The translations under genes and the position numbers were made by a program. 64,000 bases of DNA, taken from positions 1,881,486 through 1,945,485 of the forward strand of contig NZ_CP019434.1 of the NCBI RefSeq assembly GCF_001975725.1, in the 5' to 3' direction. Below are positions 8,297-62,476 of the stretch, one piece after another. The notes under the pieces were generated by a model that was not told the DNA's origin, did not search any database, and saw only the letters and a program-made list of their open reading frames with translations. Position 1 is the stretch's first letter. Every line of letters begins with the position of its first letter. This stretch comes from Acidihalobacter ferrooxydans (GTDB taxonomy: Bacteria; Pseudomonadota; Gammaproteobacteria; DSM-5130; Acidihalobacteraceae).

Positions 8297-8941
8297 TCAG
8301 TGTTGCTGGCGGCGTTCGGCCTCCATCTCGACCAACACGGTGGCCTGATCGGTCAGGCGTTGCAACGTCGCTTCCAGCGCGTTGTCGTCTCTCGTCAGTC
8401 CGGGTGCAAAGGCCTGGACGATGTCCGGTTTGAGGAACAGCATCATGCCCATGCCGATAAGGCTCAGCGCGAGTTGGTTGATCGCGTCGTCGATCACCTC
8501 GGCGTGGCAGTGCCGGCACAGGAAGCGACATAGCTGTTCGTGCCGCGGACGGAAAAAATCGCTCCAGCCAGTCGTCAGCATGCCGGTTGGCTGCATTTGC
8601 TCACGCATGAACAACAGGTGCATATGCGGCATCTGGCGATCATTCGCGAGTGTGCGCAAGGGTCGGAAGTAGGCCTCAAGACCTACCCGCAAGGGGGTGT
8701 CGTCGGCGCGCAGTTCGTCCGGGATCTCGGTGAGTTCGGCGGCGGGGCGCAGAACCTCCCGATAAAGTGAAATCTTGTCGCCGAAGTGATAATGCACGGC
8801 TGCACCGTTGGCGCCCGCGGCCTGGCAGATTTCACGGACCGACGCGCGGTTATAGCCCTTCTCGGCAAACACCCGGGTGGCGGTGCGCAGGATGCGTTCG
8901 CGAGTGTTGTCGGCGGGTCGGTCCATTCGGGCGAGGTCCAT
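8297..8941 (-). CDS. TetR/AcrR-family repressor (CerR/DUF1956-like)
   Basis: The N-terminal helix-turn-helix (NTRERILRTATRVFAEKGYNRASVREICQAAG) is followed by a C-terminal domain resembling the CerR/DUF1956 subgroup. The ATG at 8941 (MDLARMDRPADN) is chosen because longer forms would start inside the operator-like palindrome. It is the first gene of the operon encoding the channel, fusion protein and pump, with 92 bases to the channel gene. Autorepression that also controls efflux is therefore likely. The inducer is unknown. Confidence 0.88.
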   Translation of the reverse strand: MDLARMDRPADNTRERILRTATRVFAEKGYNRASVREICQAAGANGAAVHYHFGDKISLYREVLRPAAELTEIPDELRADDTPLRVGLEAYFRPLRTLANDRQMPHMHLLFMREQMQPTGMLTTGWSDFFRPRHEQLCRFLCRHCHAEVIDDAINQLALSLIGMGMMLFLKPDIVQAFAPGLTRDDNALEATLQRLTDQATVLVEMEAERRQQH

Positions 8942-8968
8942 GTGATGGATGACACGCAGTTTACGCAT

Positions 8969-9001
8969 TTTCAAACGATCGAATCAAGCGTTTGTTTGAA
9001 A
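8969..9001. promoter_or_regulatory. Probable operator of the TetR-type repressor
   Basis: Half-sites TTTCAAAC (8969-8976) and GTTTGAAA (8994-9001) form a perfect 8-bp inverted repeat with an additional internal CGTTTG at 8989. It lies directly upstream of the TetR-type gene, where an autoregulatory operator would be expected. The binding assignment is an inference. Confidence 0.5.
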
Positions 9002-9091: not shown

Positions 9092-9251
9092 CCCGAATGT
9101 TTCACAAATTCCCGCCGCTCTCGCGGGTCTCTTGATTCCACAAGGGATATCTCCTCAGTCAGCCGTCATCGCCGATACGCCGCTCCTTCTGAAATCCCCT
9201 TGTGAAAACAATATCCGGCGCGATACCGGCACTAGTTATGAAACATTCGGG
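9092..9251. repeat. 160-bp palindromic dispersed repeat, copy A
   Basis: The outer inverted termini are CCCGAATGTTTC and GAAACATTCGGG. An inner inverted repeat (CACAAGGG at 9139-9146, CCCTTGTG at 9197-9204) is nested inside. It matches copies at 12798-12957 and 61361-61521 along its whole length. The left and right termini differ from copy C by a paired change (A with T instead of G with C), which keeps the stem. It lies between the TetR-type gene and lexA. No coding capacity is seen. Confidence 0.85.
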
Positions 9252-9341: not shown

Positions 9342-9935
9342 ATGCATCCACGCCAAGCAGAAATCCTCAATGCCATCCGCAATCATTTCACAACCTATGG
9401 TCATGCGCCGACTCTGACCGAGATCGGCCAGCGGCTGGGTCTGGAGAAAAACACCGTCCACTACCACGTCAGAGCCATGCTCTCCGCGGGGCTGCTGATC
9501 CGCGAGCCCGGTTGGCGCGGATTACGCCTGCCGGCGAACATGGATGAGGAGGCGATGAGGTCGTTGCCCCTGGCGGGGCGTATTGCGGCGGGGCATCCGA
9601 TCGAGGCCATTCCGGGGCAGGATGCACTGGATCTTTCGGCGCTGTTGCTGGGGTCTGGTCGCTACGCGTTGCAGGTCAAGGGGGAGTCGATGATCGATGC
9701 GGGGATTTTCGACGGCGACTACGTGATTCTCGAACGGCGCGATCATGCGCAGGATGGCGACATCGTCGCAGCGCTGATCGACAATGAAGATGCAACGCTC
9801 AAGCGGCTGCGGCACACCAACGCAGGTGAAGTTCTGTTGGTGCCGGAAAATGCCGACATGGCACCGATGGTGTTCGCGCCCGAGCGCGTGAGCATCCAGG
9901 GCGTGCTTGTTGCGCAACTGCGCAGGTACCGCTGA
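9342..9935 (+). CDS. lexA: LexA SOS repressor
   Basis: This 197-residue protein has an N-terminal winged helix (HPRQAEILNAIRNHFTTYGHAPTL) and a C-terminal S24 autoprotease domain. The cleavage site is Ala83-Gly84 (IAAGHP), the nucleophile Ser116 (GESMIDAG) and the general base Lys154 (ATLKRL). RecA filaments trigger self-cleavage and derepress SOS genes. It is followed after one base by a Y-family polymerase, so the two form an SOS mutagenesis cassette. Putative half-sites upstream suggest autoregulation. The wing and recognition region (LGLEKNTVHYHVRAM) differs from E. coli LexA, in line with a different operator. Confidence 0.95.
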   Translation: MHPRQAEILNAIRNHFTTYGHAPTLTEIGQRLGLEKNTVHYHVRAMLSAGLLIREPGWRGLRLPANMDEEAMRSLPLAGRIAAGHPIEAIPGQDALDLSALLLGSGRYALQVKGESMIDAGIFDGDYVILERRDHAQDGDIVAALIDNEDATLKRLRHTNAGEVLLVPENADMAPMVFAPERVSIQGVLVAQLRRYR

Positions 9936-11200: not shown

Positions 11201-12466
11201 TTACAAAGCAGAAATCGTTCCTGGCGCGGCGTTGTGTTCGGGCGATGTGTAATGTTCCTGCACGTATTGTTTGACCAGTGCTTTAAATTCTGCCGCGATG
11301 GTGTCGCCCTTGAGCGTGACGGTTTTTTCGCCGTCGACATACACGGGTGCGACCGGGGTTTCACCACTGCCCGGCAGACTGATGCCGATATTGGCGTTAC
11401 GGCTTTCGCCTGGCCCGTTGACCACGCAGCCCATGACCGCGACGCTCATGTCCTCGACGCCAGGGTGCGTGGCGCGCCAGACCGGCATTTGCGCGACCAG
11501 GAACTCCTGAATCTCGGAGGCCAGGTGTTGAAAATAATCGCTGGAGGTGCGCCCGCAGCCGGGGCAGGCGATGACGCGGGGAGTGAATGAGCGCATGCCC
11601 AGCGATTGCAGGATTTCCTGCCCGACCAGCACCTCCTGCGTGCGTTGCCCGCCGGGCTCGGGGGTGAGTGAAATACGGATCGTGTCGCCGATGCCTTCGT
11701 CCAGCAGCACGGACAGCGCCGCGGTGGAAGCGACGATACCCTTGGTTCCCATGCCGGCCTCTGTAAGGCCGAGATGCAGCGGGTAGTCGCACAGCGCGGC
11801 CAGATCGCGATATGCGCGGATCAGATCCTGCACGCCCGACAGCTTGCAGGATAAAATGATACGGTCATGCTCGAGCCCGAGCTCTTCGGCGCGCCGGGCA
11901 CTGGACAATGCCGATTCGAGCAACGCGTCGTGGGTGATTTCCTCCAGAGCCTTGGGCTGTGACTGCTGGGCGTTCTCATCCAATAGCCGGGCCAGCAAGT
12001 CCTGATCAAGCGAACCCCAGTTGACACCGATGCGCACCGGCTTGTCGTAGCGACAGGCAAATTCGATCATCTGCGCGAATTGCTCGTCGCGTTTCTTTCC
12101 ACGGCCAACGTTACCCGGATTGATGCGGTATTTGGCCAACGCTTCGGCACAGGCTGGATGTTTGGTCAGAAGTTTGTGTCCGTTGAAATGAAAATCGCCG
12201 ATCAGCGGGACGTCGAGGCCCATGGCTTCCACGCGTTCGCGAATTTCCGGTACCGCGGCCGCGGCTTCCTCCGTGTTGACGGTAATGCGGACCATCTCGG
12301 AGCCGGCGCGGGCCAGTTCGGCAACCTGGATGGCCGTGCGCAGCGCATCGGCGGTGTCTGTGTTAGTCATGGACTGAACGACGACCGGCGCATCGCCGCC
12401 GACCGTGACTGAGCCGATGTGGACGGCAACGCTTTTTCGTCTATGTTTTGGAGCAACGGATGTCAT
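11201..12466 (-). CDS. ispG: 4-hydroxy-3-methylbut-2-enyl diphosphate synthase (flavodoxin)
   Basis: IspG (GcpE) catalyses the penultimate step of the MEP isoprenoid pathway with a [4Fe-4S] cluster. The cluster cysteines are visible in [12 protein letters not shown] and CVVNGPGES. The length of 421 residues fits the bacterial two-domain form: an N-terminal TIM barrel, beginning [26 protein letters not shown], then the Fe-S domain. It stands alone, convergent with the polymerase gene. Its upstream region carries repeat copy B. Confidence 0.96.
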
Positions 12467-12797
12467 GAGCTTTATTGATCCAGTGTGGTGAGAAGGTGGG
12501 CGGAAGCCGGATATTGCATTAGGCGGAGGTGATGATTGTGCCGATGTTTGGATTCACAGGAGAGCCTCAGCAGGCGACATCGTTGCGCGATGCCCGACTG
12601 AAGAAGCAATCTGTGGATTCAAAGATCGGGCAAGGATGCTTCTCCTGATGGCCTATCCGGTTTGAGTGTAAGGTCATCGACTTTGAGTTTTCGTCATCAT
12701 GATATGAAAACTGTAGCCGCATCCTGTGACAAATGAAACATGGACTCAATGAACGGGGGAGCCATTGCCCGACATTGATACATGCCCGGGCCTCTAT
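12467..12797. other. Non-coding region upstream of ispG
   Basis: No convincing gene is present; short reading frames here match no family I know. The stretch CCGGATATTGCATT at 12507-12520 matches part of the hairpin element at 31063-31131 and may be a decayed half-copy. Confidence 0.4.
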
Positions 12798-12957
12798 CCC
12801 GAATAATTGGCAAGTTTCCATCGATCCCACGGGTCTCCTTATTCCACAAGGGATAATTCGTCAGTCGGTCGTCATCACCGATACGCCGATTCTTTGGGCA
12901 TTGCCTTGTGAAACCCATATCTGACGCGATATCAGCACTAGTTTTAAAGCATCCGGG
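12798..12957. repeat. 160-bp palindromic dispersed repeat, copy B
   Basis: This is the most diverged of three copies. The left end CCCGAAT (12798-12804) and right end CATCCGGG are recognisable. The inner pair CACAAGGG (12845-12852) and GCCTTGTG (12903-12910) is kept with one mismatch. Internal blocks such as GATACGCCG and TGTGAAACCCATATC match copies A and C. It lies between ispG and the DUF1631 gene, again between divergent genes. Confidence 0.8.
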
Positions 12958-13091
12958 CTATCACTGCGGCGCGGTAGACTCCTGGCTGGTTGCGCAGGGA
13001 GTCCCCCGTAGGCTTAGTTTGTCGGCCCTTGTTAGCATGCGTCACAAAGGCTTAATATAAAACTGCAACAGTGTTGCGGAGAATCAGAGTC

Positions 13092-13185
13092 CAGAAGCCT
13101 GTCGGACTAGGAGGATTGTAGCGAGGCGAATGGGCCCGTTATCCCATCGCCGCAGCCGATTCTTTCCAAGTCCGACAGGCTCCTA
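13092..13185. repeat. Second dispersed repeat family, copy 1
   Basis: A 13-bp perfect inverted repeat (AGCCTGTCGGACT at 13096-13108, AGTCCGACAGGCT at 13169-13181) brackets a core containing TTATCCCATCGCC and CAGCCGATTCTTTC. The core and the terminal sequence TAGGAGCCTGTCGGAC recur at 31161-31240. It is non-coding. Confidence 0.75.
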
Positions 13186-13337: not shown

Positions 13338-15766
13338 ATGGCAATGACTGACAACCGCACCGATAGTTTGATTCCGCAGCGCGGTGCGTTGATTGCACAT
13401 CTGCGGGAGCAGATACAGCAAACTCTTGAGCAGCGTTGCAAGCTCTTGTTCGAAGATGTCGACGATGGGTTTTCAAACGCGCCGACAAGGCTGAAAGCAA
13501 CGCGCAGCAGGAGATGTATTTCGATGCGATGCGCGAGGCGCGCCACAAAAGCAAGAGCCTGGAATCGGATTTCATCACAGGTGTACTCAAGGCATTTGAG
13601 CAGCTGTTTTCACCCGCCGTATTGCGCCATCGTGATCATTCAAATGCAGGGGATTTCGGCGAACTGAGTTTGCTGGAAACGGATGTGCTCGAAGAGCGCC
13701 TTGCCATGGACGGCATGACCGGCAAAGCGCAGCGCATCTACGAAAACGAATTGCATTCAATCACGCATCGCCTCGCCACTCTGGCGAAGCGCACTGATGC
13801 GCTGAAGGAGGATGAACTTCCGATTGGGCCCAAAGTGCTTTGCCGTGCGTTCAGCGAGGCCGCAGCCGCGCTGGAGATGCCGATTCAGCCCAAGCTCGTT
13901 CTTTACAAGCTTTTTGAGCAGGATGTCCTTGGCAATCTGGGCGAATTCTATGCCGCTTTCGACGAAAGTTTGCGTAAAGCGGGGGTGTTGCCAGACTTGA
14001 GAGTCGCTGATCGCCCGGGTGCCTCGGGATATTGCCGCGCGCGCCGCAGTGCTGCGCAGAGGCGTGTTCCGGAGCGGGCGGTGGATCGCGGATTGATGGG
14101 TGAGGGCGCAGTCGCTGATGTCGAGATGGATGAACTCACGCACGCGCTGACGAATTTTCTGCATTCGGCACGGTTGGCAAGCCCCGGGATGAAGGTGGAG
14201 GTCGATGATCTGCCCGGCCCGATTTCAAGCGGTTCGCCATTGATCGCCGGTGCCGACATTGTCAATGCCCTCAGCCAACTGCAGCATATGCGCACGCAAG
14301 GTGAGCCCGCGCCCATCGCGGCAGGTTTCCTCAAGCAGGAGGTGCGCAGAACCGTCGCCCAACATGGAACAGATGCGCAGACCTTGGCGACTGTGGACGA
14401 GAACACCATTGATATCGTCGCGATCATGTTCGGTTTTGTGCTGGACGACCCCGATCTTCCGACTGTTTTCAAAAGCCTGATTGCCCGTTTGCAGATACCG
14501 CTGTTGAAAGTGGCGCTGATGGATCGCGAATTTCTGACCCATCGCCAACACCCCGCGCGACGCTTGCTCAATACGCTGGCGCAAGCCGGCGTAGGTTGGA
14601 GCGAAAATGACGATGCGGACACTGACGACTTGTTCAAATATGCTGAAAAGGCCGTCAATCGGGTGCTCGATGAATTCGATTCCGATATTCGCATTTTCGA
14701 ATCCGTACTTGAGGATTTCGAGCGTTATCTGGCCGGTGAACAATCCGCCGTGCAATCGCACGAAGTGGAATCTATTGAAACCGCGCAGCGGCAAGAGACG
14801 AGTGAAATTGGCAAGGCTGCGGCGAATGTGGCCATCCAGCAAGTGCTGGAGGGTCATACCATACCGCCCGGCGTAGCCGAATTTTTACGCAAGTCGTGGC
14901 GAAACCTGCTGGTTGGCATCTACGTGAGCCAAGGGAGCGAATCCGAACTCTGGAGTCGTGCACTGAACATCGCTTCAACGCTGGTGTGGAGTTTGCTGCC
15001 CAAGCAAACGAAAGAACTGCGTGCGCAGCTTCTGGCCAGCCTGCCGAACCTGCTGCAAGGCTTGAATCAGGGGATGGATCACTTGAGCTTATCCCAGGAG
15101 CAACGCGATGCGCTGTTGCAGGAATTGGCCATTGAACACCGCCGGCTGGTAACGGCTCCGCTACCCCCCGAAAGCGGGCTTTATGTTGCCGCGCCGGTCA
15201 GCGAAGCGGTATCTACGACACCGGTGCCGAATTCGGATTGGGACGGGATCCGGAGCGAAACCGACGCAGCAGAGACTGCGCCCGACATTCAACTCAATGC
15301 CGACACGGATGAGACTGAAACCGCACCTCAACCCGGTGAAAATCTGGAGGCTGAGACCGTGGCACCTGCTGCGGTTGATCTTTCTGATCGCATGGCTTTC
15401 ATCGTCCGCAAGACTGAGGAAATCCGTCGAATGATTTCAGAAGCTTCGGGGATAACCGAGGCATCGGACGAGCCGTCGGGAAAACCCGAAGATGATGAGT
15501 TTTCCGAGCGTGCCGAGAACATGCAGGAAGGAACCTGGTTGGAGTGGGTCGACACGGAAGTGGGCGACCGTCGCATGAAGCTTTCCTGGCGTAGTGCGAT
15601 CAGCGGAAAGTATTTTTTCGTCAATCGCCGTGGCTTGAAGGCCGCCGAGATGACGGTTCCCGAATTGGCCGGCGCTCTGCGCAACGACAAGGTGCGCGTC
15701 ATCGATCAGGCAGCGGTCATCGATAAGGCGTTGGTGAATGCGCTCGACAGCCTCGGTGTGAACTGA
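13338..15766 (+). pseudogene. DUF1631-family protein gene with a single-base frameshift
   Basis: DUF1631 proteins are large (about 700-800 residue) helical cytoplasmic proteins of unknown role. Here the N-terminal part (from ATG 13338: LIPQRGALIAHLREQIQQTL, then RCKLLFEDVDDGF) and the remaining ~765 residues (KRADKAESNAQQEMYFDAMREAR onward) lie in two different frames. Inserting one T in the TTTT at 13470-13473 joins them as ...DDGFFKRADKAESN..., which fits the family pattern. The rest is open to the stop at 15766. A TTG at 13436 could start a shorter product. It may be a real mutation, a homopolymer sequencing error or slippage. The C-terminus resembles a PilZ-like beta domain (TWLEWVDTEVGDRRMKLSWRSAISGKYFFVNRRG). 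Confidence 0.75.
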
Positions 15767-31062: not shown

Positions 31063-31131
31063 TTAACCCGGATCCGGATATTGCATAAATCTACACCGAT
31101 TCAGCACAAATTTATGCAACATCCGGGTTAA
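31063..31131. repeat. Hairpin element sharing the terminus of the 160-bp repeat
   Basis: The outer arms are TTAACCCGGAT (31063-31073) and ATCCGGGTTAA (31121-31131). The inner arms are TTGCATAAAT (31081-31090) and ATTTATGCAA (31110-31119). The right end ACATCCGGGT matches the right end of repeat copy C. It is non-coding, upstream of the methyltransferase gene. Confidence 0.7.
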
Positions 31132-60440: not shown

Positions 60441-61199
60441 TCAGGACGCCGCAGCCGGTGCGGCCGCGTCGTCGGAGACCTCGACGAACTCGTCAGTCGC
60501 GCCCGTGCCGGCACGGGCAGCCAGTCGACCCTCGTTGATCGCATCGGCCGCGGCTGTCACGTACAACTGAATGGACCGCATCGCGTCGTCGTTGCCGGGG
60601 ATCACATAGTCGATATTGTCCAGCGAATTATTGCTGTCGACCACGCCGATGATGGGGATACCAAGCTTGGCGGCTTCGGCTACGGCGATCCGCTCGTAAC
60701 CCACGTCGATGATGAACAGCGCATCGGGCAACCTGCCCATGTCCTTGATGCCGCCGAGGCTCTTTTCGAGCTTGTCCATCTCACGGCGCAGCATCAATGC
60801 TTCTTTCTTGCCCACGCGCTCGAAGGCGCCTTCCTTTTCCTGGGCTTCCAGATCCTTCAAGCGCTGAATCGATTGCTTCACCGTTTTGAAGTTGGTCAGC
60901 ATGCCGCCCAGCCAGCGCTGATTGACGTAAGGCATGCCGCAACGCTCAGCTTCTTCGCGCACCGTGTCACGCGCCGAACGCTTTGTGCCGACAAACAAAA
61001 CCTTGTCGTTCCTGGCCGCCAACTGGCCAAGAAAATTCATGGCGTCGTTGAACAGCGGCAACGTTTTTTCAAGGTTGATAATATGAATGCGATTGCGTTC
61101 CCCGAAGATGTACTCGGCCATCTTGGGATTCCAATATCGGGTCTGATGCCCGAAATGCACGCCAGCTTCAAGCATCTGGCGCATAGTGACATTAGCCAT
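60441..61199 (-). CDS. rpsB: 30S ribosomal protein S2
   Basis: Ribosomal protein S2, 252 residues, starts [27 protein letters not shown] and contains [28 protein letters not shown] precedes the start. It heads the minus-strand operon that runs down to lpxA. Confidence 0.98.
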
Positions 61200-61360
61200 C
61201 AGGCTACTCCTCGATCAGGGTTGGGACCTCCATACACCCCGCCTGACAACCCCGGCGACTATGCGTTTGCAAGCCTCGGAGCACCCCGTCAGACGTGACG
61301 GCATATGTGTGTCGTTCATGTACATCAGGTTATGTTTCAAAGAAGCCGCGCCGTATTTGG
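61200..61360 (-). promoter_or_regulatory. Upstream/leader region of rpsB
   Basis: The first ~110 bases upstream of rpsB are rich in G-tracts on the coding strand and probably hold an rpsB leader involved in S2 autoregulation, as in other gammaproteobacteria. I cannot draw a confident conserved structure by eye. Confidence 0.3.
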
Positions 61361-61521
61361 CCCGGATGTTTCATAACTGCCATCGATCTCGCAGGTCTCT
61401 TGATTTCACAAGGGGGTATTTCCTCAGCCGGCCGTACGCACTGATACGCCGCTCCTTCAGAAATCCCCTTGTGAAACCCATATCCGGCACAATATCAGGA
61501 CAGAATCATGAAACATCCGGG
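61361..61521. repeat. 160-bp palindromic dispersed repeat, copy C
   Basis: This is the best-preserved copy. Its ends CCCGGATGTTTCAT (61361-61374) and ATGAAACATCCGGG (61508-61521) are perfect 14-bp inverted repeats. The inner arms TTTCACAAGGGG (61404-61415) and CCCCTTGTGAAA (61465-61476) are perfect over 12 bp. It lies between divergent rpsB and map. Confidence 0.87.
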
Positions 61522-61687: not shown

Positions 61688-62476
61688 ATGACGGTTTCCA
61701 TCAAAACCCCGGAAGAGATCGAAAAAATGCGCGTGGCCGGCCGCCTGGCGGCCGAAGTCCTGGAAATGATCGCGCCACACGTACAGCCCGGCGTCACCAC
61801 AGACGAGCTCGACCGGATCTGTCACGACTACATCGTGAACGTACAGGACGCGGTGCCCGCCCCGCTGAACTACCACGGCTTTCCAAAATCCATCTGCACC
61901 TCGATCAACCATCAGGTCTGCCACGGCATCCCCGGCGACCGCCGTCTCAAGAGCGGCGATATCGTCAACATCGACATCACGGTGATCAAAGACGGTTACC
62001 ACGGCGATACCAGCATGATGTTCCAGGTCGGCAAGCCGACCGTTCTGGGGCAACGCGTCTGCGGCATCGCGCATGAGGCGCTGTGGATCGGTTTGCGCAT
62101 GGTCGCGCCCGGCGTACGCCTGGGTGACATCGGTCACGCGATCCAGACCTACGTCGAAGGCCAGCACGCGAGCGTGGTGCGCGAATACTGTGGCCACGGC
62201 ATCGGTCTCGGCTTCCACGAAGAGCCGCAGGTGCTGCATTACGGCAAACCGAACACCGGACTCACACTCAAACCCGGCATGACCTTCACGATCGAACCGA
62301 TGGTCAATGCCGGGCGCGCGCCGGTGCGCGTGCTGCCCGATGCCTGGACCGTGGTTACCAAGGATCACAGCCTGTCGGCACAATGGGAACACACCGTCCT
62401 CGTCACCGAGACGGGGCATGAAGTGCTCACTCTGCGCAAGGATGAACGCGAAGCGTCCGCGCAGGGCGCTGCTTGA
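61688..62476 (+). CDS. map: Methionine aminopeptidase type I
   Basis: Map removes the initiator methionine from new proteins. The 262-residue protein has the metal ligands in NIDITVIKDGYHGDTS (two Asp), HGIGLGFHEEP (His), FTIEPMVN (Glu) and the C-terminal WEHTVLVTETG (Glu). It is divergent from rpsB, as in E. coli, and overlaps glnD by one base. Confidence 0.97.
   Translation: MTVSIKTPEEIEKMRVAGRLAAEVLEMIAPHVQPGVTTDELDRICHDYIVNVQDAVPAPLNYHGFPKSICTSINHQVCHGIPGDRRLKSGDIVNIDITVIKDGYHGDTSMMFQVGKPTVLGQRVCGIAHEALWIGLRMVAPGVRLGDIGHAIQTYVEGQHASVVREYCGHGIGLGFHEEPQVLHYGKPNTGLTLKPGMTFTIEPMVNAGRAPVRVLPDAWTVVTKDHSLSAQWEHTVLVTETGHEVLTLRKDEREASAQGAA

Follow-up and report, generated by a model that had tools for sequence, protein, structure and literature searches.

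The 160-bp palindromic element that recurs in the window (the whole stretch of 64,000 nucleotides of the Acidihalobacter ferrooxydans genome analysed here) is a MITE, a non-autonomous transposon, as follows from its terminal inverted repeats, its 4-bp target duplication, and the ends and target that it has in common with a resident insertion sequence of the IS1380 family. It belongs to a family of MITEs that is spread over the phylum and combines IS1380-type ends and 4-bp duplications with a hairpin preserved through paired changes. The explanation that we regard as probable is that the element is moved by an IS1380-family transposase and that its hairpin is selected in the mobile lineage as a folded single strand.

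Copies in the window and in the genome

Three stretches of the window, copies A, B, and C, are alike over the full 160 bp and share outer inverted repeats of 13–16 bases as well as inner CCACAAGGG/CCCCTTGTG arms, just as an earlier note on this DNA had described. The copies, their parts, and their neighbours are as follows.

8297–8974 (-) and 9342–9935 (+): cecR-like gene and lexA, the neighbours of copy A
9092–9251 (-, the best-pairing strand of the conserved hairpin): copy A of the 160-bp element; model R2, 124.6 bits, E 2.8e-26
9092–9104 (+): left terminal inverted repeat of copy A, CCCGAATGTTTCA, an IS1380-like end
9239–9251 (-): right terminal inverted repeat of copy A, CCCGAATGTTTCA
9138–9150 (no strand): first arm of the inner stem of copy A, CCACAAGGGATAT, with its partner at 9194–9206; from sequence and fold
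9194–9206 (no strand): second arm of the inner stem of copy A, ATCCCCTTGTGAA; from sequence and fold
11201–12466 (-) and 13436–15766 (+): ispG and a DUF1631 gene, the neighbours of copy B
12506–12661 (+): fourth, diverged copy, with ends GCCGGATATTGCATTAGG and CCTGATGGCCTATCCGG; model R2, 64.8 bits, E 1e-12
12798–12957 (-): copy B; model R2, E 1.2e-6
12794–12797 and 12958–12961: exact 4-bp duplication CTAT on the two sides of copy B
31067–31127 (no strand): 61-bp palindrome of two IS1380-type ends, CCCGGATCCGGATATTGCATAAAT and ATTTATGCAACATCCGGG, read from the sequence
60441–61199 (-) and 61688–62476 (+): rpsB and map, the neighbours of copy C
61361–61521 (-): copy C; model R2, E 3.6e-24

Pfam assigned the neighbours of copy A to a TetR/CecR-like regulator and LexA, those of copy B to GcpE (IspG) and DUF1631, and those of copy C to ribosomal protein S2 and an M24 peptidase (map). 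The fourth copy is separated from copy B by 136 bp. Rfam places the t44 RNA, the rpsB leader, at 61220–61329 on the minus strand (60.5 bits), and the insertion of copy C lies 31 bp upstream of the 5' end of this leader. The palindrome at 31067–31127 has TTAA on either side and lacks the interior of the 160-bp element. A second very short, TTAA-flanked palindrome of two IS1380-type ends was seen in another genome (G025, L054:1495–1562), and these two-end palindromes (L054:1495–1562 and window 31063–31131) probably represent a minimal form capable of movement. An inverted repeat of another kind, whose ends read GGAGCCTGTCGGACTT, occupies window positions 13094–13183; elsewhere in the genome it was also seen in the flanks of L019, L021, L022, and L250, next to or inside several copies of the element.

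The element forms a dispersed family at no fewer than 172 places in the 3.45-Mb genome. Searching this genome with copy A as the query resulted in at least 57 matches among the 40 of 149 candidates scored, some of them on both strands of a single copy. Two covariance models were then used, R1, built from 29 copies of the same genome (alignment A2), and R2, built from 27 diverse sequences (alignment A4). Among the best 150 candidates of each, R1 gave at least 146 matches at 143 distinct places and R2 at least 136 matches, 28 of them new beyond the R1 list; the lower bound of 172 is the sum of these 143 and 28 places and the window copy at 12506–12661, absent from both lists. R1 has the weaker of the two orientations; its RNAalifold structure is accordingly poor, and it was used solely as a search model. 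The CCCGAATGTTTCA end, with up to two mismatches allowed, gave 147 + 154 matches in the genome against 9 + 6 for the control. The earlier note had spoken of three copies, had proposed a covariance search of the full genome, and had held that the structure would be due to chance if the genome carried those three copies only and relatives lacked paired substitutions; the search revealed a large family rather than three copies, and relatives do carry paired substitutions (see below).

That note had also placed the element always between divergent genes. This is correct for its three copies, but genome-wide only 27 of the 83 copies (out of 91) whose context could be classed by the ORF caller lie between divergent genes, while 45 are in tandem and 11 in convergent contexts. 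The tandem copies divide 26 versus 19 by sense, and the 83 classed copies show no preferred orientation with respect to the genes beside them. None of the 91 copies lies within an ORF.

Transposon hallmarks and the candidate partner

Target duplication was analysed for the 48 of 91 copies in this genome that have intact CCC..GGG ends, the remainder being without such ends. The 4-bp duplication is exact in 13 of the 48 copies versus 1.95 expected, and the largest number reached in 1000 shuffles was 9. Mean direct identity of the four flanking bases is 2.52 of 4 compared with 1.86 (sd 0.12) after shuffling, and by register it is 0.63 for 4 bp, 0.31 for 3 bp, and 0.34 for 5 bp; the flank consensus is YTAR-like. 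In the one genome of the same genus (G001), R1 detected the element at three places, one of them full length, and the element is missing from four of four orthologous intervals, the flanks of which are too diverged to define an empty site to the exact base. The element has the features by which MITEs are recognised, namely many dispersed, short copies (here of about 160 bp), terminal inverted repeats, and a target-site duplication, and its length is too short for a transposase gene. The description as a MITE-like mobile element, which the earlier note had offered as one of three possibilities, is thus well supported by the 4-bp duplication, the ends shared with IS1380, and the absence from all four intervals of G001. 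The duplication argues against a REP/REPIN element mobilised by a RAYT (a Y1 tyrosine transposase).

A search of the genome with the end sequence led to a 1571-bp insertion sequence at G000:C1:3194256–3195826, which ends in CCCGGATATTTCAC/CCCGAATATTTCAC and is flanked by CTAG on either side. Its protein is frameshifted, and the second frame matches IS1380 (PF13701, E 3.5e-117; NF033539, E 3.5e-88). An intact IS1380 copy with a 453-amino-acid frame, the same type of ends, and a CTAG duplication lies at about G000:C1:1619528–1620727. In other genomes, IS1380 copies end in CCCGCATTTCTCAC with CTAG (G288, identical over 14 bases to the element ends found there) or in CCCGGATTTCTCWCC (G345), and in genomes of other classes in CCTGAATTATTCATAAA (G489, G536) or CCCGAATATTTCATTAG (G439), with CTAG or a sequence one base off. 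Overall, IS1380 and element ends have a mean identity of 9.5–10 of 14 bases, compared with 5.5 for random sequences. For 11 of the 14 IS1380 loci L288–L301, and for the G374 and G505 copies, automatic end finding returned either no ends or doubtful ones, and these were not counted as support.

The two also co-occur. Among 369 genomes of the class, both were found in 11, the element only in 32, the insertion sequence only in 30, and neither in 296 (Fisher p 0.0035, or 0.008 excluding the genome studied here). IS1380 was nonetheless detected in just 11 of the 43 element-bearing genomes of this class sample and in 6 of 22 in another set; carriers without a detectable IS1380 may have lost the partner, may have it in assembly gaps, or may use another transposase. 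The ends follow those of the resident IS1380 only weakly and not significantly, with an identity of 10.0 of 14 within genomes and 9.5 across them (9 genomes, permutation p 0.15). R2 gave no match inside the IS1380 copies of nine loci, and a weak match at L250 falls outside the insertion sequence. Since the interior hairpin has no match in these IS1380 copies, simple deletion of the insertion sequences examined does not account for the element. On the strength of shared ends, shared target, and co-occurrence, we infer that the element is mobilised by the IS1380 transposase.

A second kind of element in the genome studied here, about 140–260 bp long (L243:189–445, L244:208–352, L246:230–367), has the same CCCGAATATTTCAC ends with another interior and a sub-terminal motif, GCGATGATCGCG, that is also present in the 160-bp element of other species. 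Genome G505, which belongs to another class, has 26 IS1380 matches, 17 of them over profile positions 2–417 with nearly equal scores, together with several 160-bp elements, and is a possible natural test case for mobilisation.

Outside the genome studied here, the element is widespread. Of the 369 class genomes sampled, R2 detected it in 43 (this one included), representing 35 of 271 genera, and, in a sample of the phylum, in 42 of 398 genomes, 41 of which are labelled as the same phylum but another class. A pattern scan of named genomes resulted in 89 stretches at 80 loci, from Sedimenticola, Nitrococcus mobilis, Dokdonella immobilis, Halomonas, Thiohalomonas, Chromatiales, and other gammaproteobacterial assemblies, as well as from one contig of a Planctomycetia MAG that may be misbinned. 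Plasmid records contained no match for a window copy or a copy from G013. Enlarged forms were seen as well. Copies from G013 and Sedimenticola (L053, L055, L069, L082, L084, L105, L127) have small hairpins of the GTACAGGGAGGTACAAGTGCCG... type inserted at the tip, and these enlarged forms are themselves repeated. In two MAGs (L066, L073, L093, L098, L125, L131), the enlargement is a fixed insert (GGCGGTTCTCGGCTCCTGCC...) within the first internal loop, seen in several copies whose ends are normal.

A hairpin kept by paired changes

The whole element folds into one imperfect hairpin of 62 pairs. For copy A the predicted energy is -59.1 kcal/mol on the plus strand (z -3.4) and -76.4 kcal/mol on the minus strand (z -5.2), and none of 200 shuffled sequences folds as well on either strand. 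The strand named above folds better than its complement in all full copies of two sets (9 of 9 and 20 of 20); exceptions occur among the pattern-scan segments, for example L095 and L113.

Across genomes, the pairing is retained while the sequence changes. In alignment A4, which leaves out L068, 91.0% of cells pair and 41 of the 62 pairs have changed on both sides, giving a covariation score of 0.417 versus 0.176 (sd 0.008) after shuffling and 0.07–0.12 when the partner is slid. The A4 structure was then mapped onto alignment A5, made with MAFFT from 24 sequences, 19 of which come from other classes (19 of the 20 fetched, L313 being omitted for a degenerate end). Here 92.2% of cells pair, both partners have changed in 49 of the 62 pairs, and covariation scores 0.510 versus 0.207 after shuffling. 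Paired changes have therefore maintained the hairpin in at least two classes of Pseudomonadota, which would not be expected of an ordinary MITE. The unpaired loops are nearly invariant, such as the ATGA of GATGATCGC, and the non-complementary loops (ATGA opposite GGG, GGAG opposite ACTGA) are kept in most of the aligned sequences, the first of them across classes. Rfam yielded no match for the window element at the gathering threshold and, at E values up to 1, solely microRNA-precursor hairpins below their cut-offs.

A paired change is also visible inside the genome, at the terminal stem, where the earlier note had pointed to one between copies A and C. At the fifth position from each end, the 75 of 83 copies with readable ends have A-T in 27 cases, G-C in 26, G-T in 14, A-C in 5, and other combinations in 3 (Fisher p 3e-5), so the change seen in the window is real.

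Proposed selection on the folded strand and alternative explanations

If the symmetry of double-stranded DNA alone were at work, transitions would leave either strand with as many A-C as G-U mismatches. In the comparison between lineages, however, G-U exceeds A-C by 45 to 19 in 17 sequences (12 sequences versus 3), with p 0.0016, which, like the other mismatch p values, is a guide since related sequences are non-independent. For this count, sequences were obtained by sequence pattern, and only pairs that occur in both strands' folds and lie outside the pattern were scored. Of the 46 end-matched elements of the genome scan, 18 were left by a 90% redundancy cut and a length cut. In other classes the ratio is 72 to 17 (19 sequences, pairs of the opposite strand's own fold), although a model of that very strand had served to select these sequences, a choice that favours G-U over A-C. 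Within the genome studied here, by contrast, the mismatch types are balanced at 43 to 44 in an alignment of 83 copies of length 150–166 (contrast with lineages, p 0.008), with the exception of terminal pair 5, where G-T outnumbers A-C by 14 to 5.

The excess of G-U on one strand between lineages argues that the folded molecule is single-stranded, and as copies within one genome decay regardless of pairing, selection is placed on the copies that still move. It thus seems that the mobile lineage retains the pairing, in the form of RNA or single-stranded DNA, whereas resident copies decay. Most simply read, insertions are free to decay, and the copies from which new lineages arise keep a foldable strand; the absence of a gene-orientation preference agrees with free decay. 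Of the other possibilities raised in the earlier note, a structured RNA is favoured by the strong covariation and the one-strand bias between lineages and disfavoured by the lack of such a bias within the genome and of an orientation preference, and a DNA-architectural site found no support.

We therefore favour selection on a folded single strand in a MITE lineage that an IS1380-family transposase mobilises. The DDE transposase of this family would cut out the element and insert it at YTAR-like sites, leaving the 4-bp duplication. The simplest candidate for the folded strand would be an RNA transcribed across the element, and selection would fall on those copies that retain mobility. The hairpin probably aids spread, for instance as a binding site for the transposase or a host factor; alternatively, processing of the hairpin by an RNase might make insertions near genes tolerable. 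A role of RNA or single-stranded DNA in the spread of the element is likewise what we infer. In a more specific version, which we offer tentatively and consider doubtful, the family would be a phylum-wide, transposon-borne structured RNA of about 160 nt whose outer stem is the transposon end, whose conserved internal loops serve as binding sites for the IS1380 transposase or a host protein, and which, as RNA or as a folded single strand, joins or gates transposition.

Several other explanations were weighed against this one. The hairpin could act as single-stranded DNA and not as RNA, the strand exposed in replication serving as a transposition substrate or regulator in the way that attC sites and REP hairpins serve recombinases. 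A one-strand G-U (that is, G-T) bias is equally expected for folded single-stranded DNA, and the outer stem equals the transposase end sequence, but the 4-bp target duplication and a DDE transposase fit double-strand cut-and-paste, a process that does not need a deeply conserved interior, and we consider this explanation unlikely. Covariation might also arise with no structural selection at all, through template switching or gene conversion at a replicating hairpin that copies one arm onto the other. This is a known mechanism for imperfect palindromes, and the arms do covary everywhere along the stem; yet copying would erase the conserved non-complementary loops and predicts as many G-U as A-C mismatches, in conflict with both between-lineage counts, which leaves it with a small probability.

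It is very improbable that the element is a structured RNA or DNA site that regulates adjoining genes and is selected by the host at each place. The stable fold, the intergenic location of all copies examined, and the position of copy C just upstream of the rpsB leader would suit such a role. However, the classed copies prefer neither an orientation nor divergent genes, the copies in the genome mutate regardless of pairing, and the same-genus genome has three places to the at least 172 found here and lacks the element at all four orthologous intervals compared. Given the missing within-genome G-U bias and orientation preference, the structure is not kept by regulating each flanking gene. The least probable explanation, to which we give hardly any credence, is membership in the ERIC family. 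ERIC is likewise a palindromic intergenic repeat of 100–200 bp with an internal-loop motif GGAGC/GACTG, and by eye the ERIC in L147 has in common with the element the succession GGAGC, hairpin, GACTG, and then AGCGA. When R2 was applied to three E. coli loci, though, ERIC scored 6.8 bits (E 0.38), no better than the flanks, and its ends there are not CCC..GGG. Membership was rejected on this covariance test, and what remains is a likeness between elements with different ends. ERIC has been reported in Enterobacteriaceae and Vibrionaceae (PMC10969869, available text).

Among known systems, the IS1380 family (PF13701, NF033539) resembles the element in its CCCGGATATTTCAC-like ends and its CTAG/YTAR 4-bp duplication and is intact in the same genome; it differs in that the element has no transposase, and the 130-bp interior of the element is not found in the IS1380 copies examined. 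QMITE2 of Coxiella and the Correia elements of Neisseria are similarly short, with inverted ends, direct duplications, and a stable hairpin when transcribed, and transcripts bearing Correia elements are cut by RNase III (PMC10969869, available text). In contrast to the element described here, for which it was measured, upkeep of the hairpin by paired changes across classes is not reported for them in the available text of that source. The piggyBac transposons, for which IS1380 served as an outgroup, have a 4-bp TTAA-type target and ends starting with CCC, according to the available text of PMC10813416, but are eukaryotic, autonomous, and much longer. No description of the element, or of an IS1380 MITE with a conserved hairpin, was found in the open-licence papers searched.

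MITEs are usually viewed as dead leftovers of insertion sequences, with an interior that drifts freely. The present family is a non-autonomous element whose hairpin and loops are kept across at least two classes, with paired changes and a strand bias, while single insertions decay, and it separates selection on a moving lineage from selection on an insertion site. It also gives an ERIC-like repeat a likely transposase partner; we know of no such partner for ERIC itself. The family thereby provides a testable case for a folded single strand in the life cycle of a DNA transposon.
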